DNA of 64,000 nt from assembly GCF_001465835.2 (NCBI RefSeq), contig NZ_CP013661.2, positions 806,001-870,000 of the forward strand, written 5' to 3'. Shown here piece after piece: positions 25,746 to 46,175 of the stretch. The translations under genes and the position numbers were made by a program. Within the stretch, counting starts at the first letter, position 1. Each line of letters starts with the position of its first letter. The notes under the pieces are model-generated. The model did not search any database. It was given only the letters and a program-made list of their open reading frames with translations, and was not told the origin of the DNA. This DNA comes from Planococcus kocurii. GTDB taxonomy: Bacteria; Bacillota; Bacilli; Bacillales_A; Planococcaceae.

Positions 25746-25814
25746 TAAATGATACGAATTTTAAATGATGGCATAAAGAAGCACATCCTTCGCTTTACGA
25801 CCAATAAGTTGCTT

Positions 25815-25885
25815 TCCCGCATAGTCCGGACATTTACGGTGTCCTGGTAGAGACGCAGAAGCCAATTCTTCTGCATATATGGGGT
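25815..25885 (-). promoter_or_regulatory. Purine riboswitch aptamer, guanine type (pur operon)
   Basis: The minus strand carries the three-way-junction consensus of the xpt-type aptamer: an ATATATG start, two loops joined by kissing contacts, the core GTCTCTACC, then ACCGTAAATGTCC and GACTATG. The base that pairs with the ligand is C (in GACTATG), which predicts guanine or hypoxanthine rather than adenine. P1 pairs CCC near 25884 with GGG near 25816. Confidence 0.93.
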
Positions 25886-25895
25886 ATCCTCACTT

Positions 25896-25924
25896 ATCAT
25901 AACAAGACGACGAAACTACGTCAA
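25896..25924 (-). promoter_or_regulatory. Sigma-A promoter of the pur operon
   Basis: On the minus strand TTGACG (25919-25924) and TATGAT (25896-25901) are separated by 17 bp. It lies directly upstream of the riboswitch. Confidence 0.85.
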
Positions 25925-36720: not shown

Positions 36721-36774
36721 ATTTACCCCTTCAACAGAAATGAAGGGCATCCTACTCAACTAGGAGCGGATTAA

Positions 36775-36844
36775 AATCGTAGTCGAGTCATTTACGGTGA
36801 CTCGGTAGAAACTTTCGGGCCATATTCCCGACATTATACGACAA
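36775..36844 (-). promoter_or_regulatory. Purine riboswitch aptamer, guanine type (pbuG)
   Basis: The minus strand shows the P1 start GTCGTATAAT, loop 2 and loop 3 segments, TTTCTACC, ACCGTAAATGACT and CGACTACGAT. The ligand-pairing base is C, predicting guanine or hypoxanthine. Confidence 0.92.
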
Positions 36845-36864
36845 GCTTATTTGATTTCTATCGT

Positions 36865-38605: not shown

Positions 38606-38656
38606 GCTCTACATCAAAAAGGCGAATGCACATGTCAAAAAGCATGCGTCATCCAC

Positions 38657-38728
38657 CTTCATAGTCAAGTCATTTCCGGGGACTTGGTAGAGACATCCGA
38701 TCCATATTACCGGACATATATGAGGGCA
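38657..38728 (-). promoter_or_regulatory. Purine riboswitch aptamer, guanine type (guaA)
   Basis: On the minus strand CTCATATATG, GTCTCTACC, GGAAATGACTT and GACTATGAAG reproduce the purine aptamer. The ligand-pairing base is C. No PurR box pair is seen upstream, where yebA ends at 38776, so guaA appears to be controlled by the riboswitch only. A weak TTAACT/TATAAA promoter-like pair lies at about 38735-38765. Confidence 0.92.
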
Positions 38729-38775
38729 CCTGTAATTTATAATTTAATCAATTGTACAAGTTAAAGCTTGTAAAA

Positions 38776-45835: not shown

Positions 45836-45864
45836 TTGACACTTTTCACCAAACATGAGATACT
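45836..45864 (+). promoter_or_regulatory. Sigma-A promoter of the candidate small RNA
   Basis: TTGACA (45836-45841) and GATACT (45859-45864) are separated by 17 bp on the plus strand. No gene on the plus strand follows, only the structured segment at 45871-46160. Confidence 0.82.
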
Positions 45865-45870
45865 TACTTG

Positions 45871-46160
45871 GTTAACACAAAGGTAACTGGTAAATTTTGA
45901 TAATCTGGCATTCTACGATAATGTTTTTGAGAATACTTATTCACACTGGAGCGATTTAAGGATCGCAAGGACGTAAAAGAAGGTAGGGTTTACGTTGCTT
46001 AGGTTAGAAAGCACCCAGTGGAACAATGACCGCGGTACTGAAAGTAATACTTTCAATGGAAATGATTCCCCAGTAACATGGGTTGAAAAATTGAGTCAAA
46101 ACAAATTATGGTTACCTTAAACAAACAAAGGGATGTCCTCTACTTGAGGGCATCCCTTTT
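45871..46160 (+). ncRNA. Candidate structured small RNA, about 290 nt, class not recognised
   Basis: A promoter (45836-45864) and a strong terminator (46127-46160) bracket about 290 nt with no open frame of note. Helices seen by eye are a closing stem, AAGGTAAC (45880-45887) with GTTACCTT (46111-46118), and a multibranch closed by CACTGG (45944-45949) and CCAGTG (46015-46020). Inside that multibranch are hairpins GCGAT/ATCGC (45951-45966), ACGTAAA/TTTACGT (45971-45995) and GCTT/AAGC (45997-46012). A TGAAAGT/ACTTTCA hairpin (46039-46055) follows. The layout is unlike tmRNA, RNase P RNA, SRP RNA, 6S RNA, T-box or the common riboswitches I know. It is transcribed convergently with the aldehyde dehydrogenase gene and divergently from pncB. 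Confidence 0.68.
46127..46160. terminator. Bidirectional terminator (small RNA and aldehyde dehydrogenase operon)
   Basis: AGGGATGTCCTC pairs with GAGGGCATCCCT across a 5-base loop (with one mismatch or wobble). T runs follow on the plus strand, and a T-rich tail on the minus strand. Confidence 0.92.
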
Positions 46161-46175
46161 CCAATTCTTTAGCTG

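Follow-up and report, generated by a model that had tools for sequence, protein, structure and literature searches.

What kind of RNA, if any, is made from the gene-free stretch between nicotinate phosphoribosyltransferase (NAPRTase) and NAD synthase on one side and aldehyde dehydrogenase on the other in Planococcus kocurii, from which strand, and how does it act? All of these neighbours lie on the minus strand of the 64,000-nt stretch of DNA analysed here (the window). A first-pass annotation had read this stretch as an orphan structured RNA of about 290 nt with its own promoter and terminator on the plus strand. The features to which the text refers are as follows.

45836–45864, plus strand: promoter of the sigma-A type, TTGACA-17-GATACT, with transcription predicted to begin near 45871
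45871–46160, plus strand: whole RNA unit, about 290 nt, with ends predicted from the promoter and the terminator
45880–45887, plus strand: 5' arm of the closing stem P0, AAGGTAAC; recurs in relatives with compensation
45906–45913, plus strand: conserved block TGGCATTC, unpaired in the model
45922–45928, plus strand: 5' arm of P1b, TGTTTTT, pairing with 46007–46013
45935–45943, plus strand: 5' arm of P1 (ACTTA, then CA at 45942–45943), from covariation
45944–45949, plus strand: CACTGG, partner of 46015–46020; crosses P1, possible pseudoknot
45951–45966, plus strand: hairpin P2 (45951–45955 with 45962–45966), two-sided changes at 5 of 5 pairs
45971–45995, plus strand: hairpin P3 (45971–45977 with 45989–45995), from covariation tests
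45978–45988, plus strand: loop L3, AGAAGGTAGGG, conserved in homologues
45996–46004, plus strand: 3' arm of P1, from covariation
46007–46013, plus strand: 3' arm of P1b, GAAAGCA, from the 40-pair model of close relatives
46015–46020, plus strand: CCAGTG, partner of CACTGG
46029–46035, plus strand: conserved block ACCGCGG, from conservation in homologues
46039–46055, plus strand: hairpin TGAAAG...CTTTCA, from reading the sequence
46111–46118, plus strand: 3' arm of P0, GTTACCTT; recurs in relatives with compensation
46127–46160, plus strand: intrinsic terminator, with a 14-bp stem (46127–46159) present in the fold

The promoter is present as the first-pass annotation described it; it scored 10 of 12 matches in a promoter scan, carries a TG ahead of the second hexamer, and often has a counterpart in homologues. 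The bare scan operates at chance level, with 5 sites found versus 4.3 in shuffles. The terminator was absent from the pattern-scan listing, probably because few T residues follow its stem, and the convergent aldehyde dehydrogenase gene probably uses it too. As had also been claimed, no gene lies inside the unit, since the window's list of open reading frames (ORFs) holds none of at least 50 aa overlapping it on either strand, and it is not a 5' leader here, given that the next downstream gene is convergent and the terminator closes the unit. The RNA 45871–46165 folds with an energy of −80.5 kcal/mol (z −3.89), a value reached by none of 200 shuffles; the reverse strand folds well too (z −4.76). 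Folding energy was therefore rejected as a strand test, because both strands fold significantly and energy alone cannot choose between them. The plus strand at 45871–46160 holds a free-standing unit of promoter, long-range closing stem, folded core, and terminator.

We then turned to Rfam. The search against Rfam that the first-pass annotation had proposed returned no plus-strand family match at threshold in the region, and tmRNA, RNase P, SRP, 6S, T-box, and the other Rfam classes did not reach their gathering scores there, in line with what the first-pass annotation had stated of the first five. It did return RF01410 (BsrC) at 45921–46008 on the minus strand, with 67.8 bits against a gathering score of 38, the only match above threshold in the region. 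The RNA is accordingly not the orphan of unknown class it was taken for: the BsrC region of Rfam is homologous to this locus, though modelled on the opposite strand. The name bsrC goes back to 2009, judging by a reference-list entry (Saito 2009), and the accessible parts of two papers report two copies in B. subtilis, at ydaG-ydaH and cspC-ydeB (PMC3574147, PMC8208703). The RNA described here and RF01410 (B. subtilis bsrC, ydaG-ydaH) thus belong to the same locus family but differ in strand, in length (about 290 nt versus 87 nt), and in fold, with a three-way junction, a closing stem, and a possible pseudoknot here and one hairpin in the Rfam model.

To decide which strand carries the conserved structure, we counted wobble pairs, since what is G.U on the strand that folds becomes A.C on its complement. 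Among the 44 distinct cores aligned first, there were 46 G.U and 0 A.C cells in P2 and P3 together, and 26 and 6 in P1. In a larger set of 109 distinct sequences, the P3 wobbles favoured the plus strand by 55:1. A first count of P2 wobbles, in which the register was chosen freely by Watson–Crick pairs, gave 26:39, against the plus strand; with the register fixed by flanking motifs, the count was 53:1 for it (100 distinct sequences, locus L195 being unmatched). Of 119 distinct loci, 51 have a promoter-like site (score at least 10 of 12) ahead of the core on the plus strand, versus 5 for the minus-strand mirror and 5 and 2 in two further controls that counted opposite regions. Terminator-like hairpins (−10 kcal/mol or better) followed the core in 64 of the same loci on the plus strand and in 10 on the minus strand. 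This set leaves out L002–L030, L160, and L195, and within it 68 loci lack a promoter of score 10 and 55 lack a terminator at threshold. RF01410 matched the core in all six loci that were scanned for it, and in relatives with the ydaG-type gene arrangement, the YdaG-like gene and the core point the same way, with RF01410 on the opposite strand. On the RF01410 strand, then, the wobble pairs do not favour a conserved structure, and the sequence-predicted promoters and terminators do not point to a transcription unit.

It is near certain that the locus encodes a structured non-coding RNA and that this RNA is made from the plus strand. Rfam BsrC is the antisense of its core; Rfam appears to have modelled the wrong strand of the DNA, and this may have helped to keep the role of the RNA obscure. 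That the Rfam entry is right as modelled, the working RNA being a minus-strand transcript of about 87 nt and the plus-strand signal secondary, would fit the above-threshold RF01410 match and the good fold of the minus strand, but we consider it very improbable in view of the 108:2 asymmetry of G.U pairs, the plus-strand promoters and terminators, and the absence of minus-strand sites among the 5 promoter-like sites of the promoter scan. What published data there are point to the same strand. A transcript called BsrC in Paenibacillus riograndensis is given, in the accessible text, as 322 nt on the minus strand at 688,067–687,745 (PMC5670726; GEO GSE98766). In a genus that is probably Paenibacillus, to judge from its best named matches, which span the core alone, the core lies on the minus strand in 20 of the 24 single-contig genomes that have it, and in 15 of the 16 in which it falls at 0.47–0.64 Mb, an orientation that agrees with that transcript in a circumstantial way. 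The accessible part of PMC3574147 describes a similar history for CsfG, which Rfam holds as ylbH: it was likewise placed on one strand first and its RNA was detected from the reverse, and it too was found with Hfq. Its conserved stretches are described there as CU-rich, which sets it apart from the RNA studied here with its purine-rich L3.

The conserved core, 76 nt long, is a three-way junction of P1, P2, and P3, arranged in the order P1, UUCACACUGG, P2, AAGGA, and P3 with the exposed purine loop AGGUAGGG. Both junction strands, UUCACACUGG and AAGGA, are strongly conserved, and AGGTAGGG of L3 is invariant in 43 sequences; a few relatives carry AGGCAGGG instead. Across 23 sequences of the core, 95.2% of cells pair, with a covariation score of 0.291 versus 0.193 in shuffles. 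Across 82 distinct sequences, whose alignment was fitted to the model and is so biased towards it, 94.3% pair, with 230 compensated cells versus 70 in shuffles. A sequence-only alignment of 43 loci of the long type gave 93.8% paired cells and 78 compensated ones versus 20.6. In 21 close relatives, a 40-pair model that includes P0, P1b, and the pseudoknot had 96.5% of cells paired and 26 compensated versus 7.5, while further pair types did no better than shuffles (155/500). Homologues conserved without compensatory changes, which the first-pass annotation had named as the outcome that would speak against structure, were thus looked for, and the excess of compensated cells over shuffles favours structure.

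In the Planococcus lineage, this core is embedded in an RNA of about 290 nt closed by P0. The closing stem proposed from the window sequence exists, recurs in relatives, and varies with compensation, as in the variants AAGGTAAC/GTTACCTT and TTAGCTAGTTTA/TAAATTAGCTAA at like places. When the long-range helix was scored with each locus's own arms and with swapped ones, scores of at least 28 occurred in 28 of 136 own and 16 of 408 swapped combinations, with a small shift of the mean (24.9 versus 22.7). The difference was clearer in the long type alone (at least 24 in 15 of 41 versus 8.4% of swaps), and conservation of the stem sequence in some genera makes the swapped control a conservative one. 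The same kind of comparison separated P1b weakly (12.9 versus 12.3).

The pairing of 45944–45949 with 46015–46020, which had been read as closing a multibranch with three hairpins, is present, but as it is invariant in 21 of 21 close relatives, it shows no covariation; in 43 wider relatives, 87.1% of CACUGG/CCAGUG cells pair. Run on 21 long-type sequences, RNAalifold, which is unable to draw crossing pairs (pseudoknots), preferred UUCACACUGG/CCAGUGGAA and a multibranch whose third hairpin has 3 bp; P0, P1, and P1b were all missing from its prediction. Since P1 covaries across genera, P1 and CACUGG/CCAGUG are, we infer, best reconciled as a pseudoknot, which would perhaps tie the 290-nt RNA together. 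There is good support for two of the three hairpins, P2 and P3; the model speaks against the third (GCTT...AAGC), since it pairs the arms of that hairpin elsewhere, in P1 and P1b. A pseudoknot between L3 and the tail was rejected as a general feature, as mean scores were barely above those of shuffles (6.2 versus 5.8). Of the 136 loci, 10 scored at least 8; 9 of these fall outside the long type and 7 belong to a carD-csp (ydeB-cspC) subgroup. In this subgroup (L031, L119, L129, L174, and L191), a segment like CTCTATCTTT lies downstream of the core and is complementary to L3 over 10 nt including G.U, a possible lineage-specific pseudoknot.

The core is widespread. A nucleotide search matched 60 of 100 genomes, the window's own included. 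RF01410 itself matched 72 of 151 genomes from the class and, in a control set of 14 genomes, Bacillus subtilis alone. A pattern scan of named genomes yielded at least 120 loci, from Paenibacillus, Bacillus, Planococcus, Sporosarcina, Priestia, Gracilibacillus, Kurthia, Alkalibacterium, and others. R1, a covariance model of the core, matched 118 of the 120 named pattern loci listed (98/100 and 20/20). The two exceptions, in metagenome-assembled genomes named as an archaeon and a Gemmatimonadetes bacterium, were taken as probable chance hits because the covariance model does not match them. R1 found the core in 209 of 398 genomes of the class, covering 76 of 145 genera and mostly with one copy per matching genome, and in 10 of 299 genomes of a phylum sample, all ten in the window's class. 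The genus that is probably Paenibacillus has it in 74 of 75 genomes. A search for a phage origin with a 101-base query gave no match among 50,697 records. Three plasmid records of 0.7–2.7 Mb, from Paenibacillus, Niallia, and Aneurinibacillus (NZ_CP054613.1, NZ_CP102590.1, and NZ_CP116888.1), carry one copy each, with no annotated feature beneath it in the PLSDB table.

Two kinds of locus emerged. At least one of the blocks TGGC[AG]TTC (upstream, mostly at −34 to −40) and ACCGCGG (downstream, mostly at +36 to +44) flanks the core in 85 of 166 loci, and neither does in 81; the 76-nt core is therefore the common module and the longer form one elaboration of it. The long form, with its covarying closing stem and possible pseudoknot, occurs in Planococcaceae and several other genera.

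The genes around the core are mixed and lie on both strands. For 125 distinct loci, the closest ORF was assigned on the upstream side (119) and on the downstream side (110), and the commonest Pfam families included CarD (12 upstream, 2 downstream), the cold-shock domain (3 and 6), NAPRTase (5), pyridoxamine-oxidase-like (5), aldehyde dehydrogenase (4), and Amj (4). CvfB, an S1-domain protein of RNA-binding type, is the downstream neighbour in 8 of the 110 (L143:4472–5395 and seven others). A ydaG-ydaH neighbourhood as in B. subtilis is not found in the window. Elsewhere, a YdaG-like gene lies upstream of the core in B. altitudinis, B. sonorensis, and Bacillus sp. WMMC1349, and an Amj (YdaH)-like gene downstream in the latter two. 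In a motif search, 23 of 132 distinct loci (25 of 137 with duplicates counted) had a cold-shock gene within 1.2 kb of the core. In 21 of these the two are co-directional, with the cold-shock gene upstream of the core in 6 and downstream in 15. A set of 104 distinct named loci of 8 kb held 12 csp genes in 243 kb near the core versus 7 in 582 kb of their outer parts, a fourfold excess (p 0.0024, uncorrected for shared ancestry). The link is bound to lineage and absent in the window. A riboswitch or leader would keep a fixed position ahead of one type of co-directional gene; the core does not, apart from some csp, carD, CvfB, and GGACT lineages, and because neighbours differ between lineages, the RNA is mostly not a leader.

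Several further RNA elements were seen in these regions. A Bacillus halotolerans locus of the cspC type (L115) holds two matches to the cspA thermoregulator RF01766, at 869–1236 and 1826–2192 (83.6 and 80.6 bits versus 78), and a 13-kb part of the window contains three purine riboswitch aptamers (RF00167), all on the minus strand, at 25802–25902, 36760–36861, and 38642–38743. In Anoxybacillus (L107:3600–3800) and in a similar locus (L048:1380–1660), a compact core directly follows an intrinsic terminator and is closely followed by a GGACT gene, which encodes a gamma-glutamyl cyclotransferase, AIG2-like.

How the RNA acts was weighed against these data. The best explanation overall, which we hold with modest confidence, is a conserved, mostly free-standing non-coding RNA of Bacillales made from the plus strand that would act in trans as a putative protein-binding RNA. 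The conserved junction and loop would be a candidate binding site for a protein of the RNA-chaperone type, with Hfq or a cold-shock-domain protein as the first candidate partners, and the RNA may titrate or position its partner; this more specific step, working by binding RNA chaperones, is put forward tentatively. Trans-acting protein binding fits best because of the promoter–terminator unit, the conserved unpaired junction and loop, the lack of a shared L3 target, and the Hfq co-immunoprecipitation, where the bsrC region ranks first, with a ratio of 53.6, in the examined part of the B. subtilis table, by a method in which, as the accessible text has it, strand information is lost (PMC3574147). 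The cold-shock gene neighbourhood points weakly to the same role. The compact cores of L107 and L048 speak against so simple a picture, as they look cis-acting, unlike the promoter–terminator unit of the window.

The same unit, the exposed conserved loop, and the Hfq co-immunoprecipitation of the B. subtilis locus (PMC3574147) would also suit a base-pairing small RNA, in which L3 or another conserved block binds C/U-rich mRNA sites and alters their translation or decay. We regard this as somewhat doubtful, as much of the core is conserved structure and perfect 10-nt complements of L3, the only ones counted, are rare: 12 occur in 7 genomes of the window's genus, 4 of which are the RNA gene itself, and the other 8 are not orthologous, no target being common to the 7 genomes. 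The lack of a shared perfect target disfavours simple antisense pairing through L3. The 12 exact complements, CCCTACCTTC, are fewer than the 65 of the reversed pattern, which may reflect avoidance or simply codon usage. An unlikely reading is that of a cis-acting leader or switch, at times also free-standing, which would sense temperature or a ligand and control a csp or GGACT gene. Indeed, in 15 of 132 distinct loci, including Metabacillus and a Brevibacillus, the core precedes csp in the same direction, and it lies upstream of GGACT genes in the two loci examined; yet csp lies upstream instead in 6 loci, neighbours vary, and in the window the downstream gene is convergent and a terminator closes the unit. 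Two other candidates were rejected. Complementarity to rRNA (TGGCATTC to 23S and ACCGCGG to 16S) exists, but is near chance by estimate for the seven motifs tried, and none of 23 long-type loci has an ORF of at least 18 aa with a Shine–Dalgarno (SD)-like motif, a frame of 19–26 aa across the core recurring without SD in 8 of them.

OLE, 6S, and similar large RNAs are conserved, structured, and made from their own transcription units, as is the trans-acting RNA proposed here. None of these families matches the region at the Rfam threshold, and the RNA is smaller than OLE, for which abstracts give about 600 nt. In the accessible literature, which also took in PMC2784878, PMC4634765, PMC8632094, PMC11109978, and PMC4448311, with most subscription papers including Saito 2009 outside its scope, we found no description of the plus-strand structure. 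We believe that the strand, the longer fold, the covariation of the core, and its spread are new. A bolder view, possible at best, is that this is a major class of Bacillales RNA, a pseudoknotted protein–RNA particle built on the 76-nt core and part of an RNA-chaperone network of cold-shock proteins and Hfq, which was overlooked through an antisense entry. Collectively, Rfam seems to store a widespread Bacillales RNA as its complement, and anyone annotating genomes or designing probes from the entry would be led to the wrong strand. Now that the strand, the likely ends, and the core structure are at hand, the function of the RNA is directly testable in B. subtilis.
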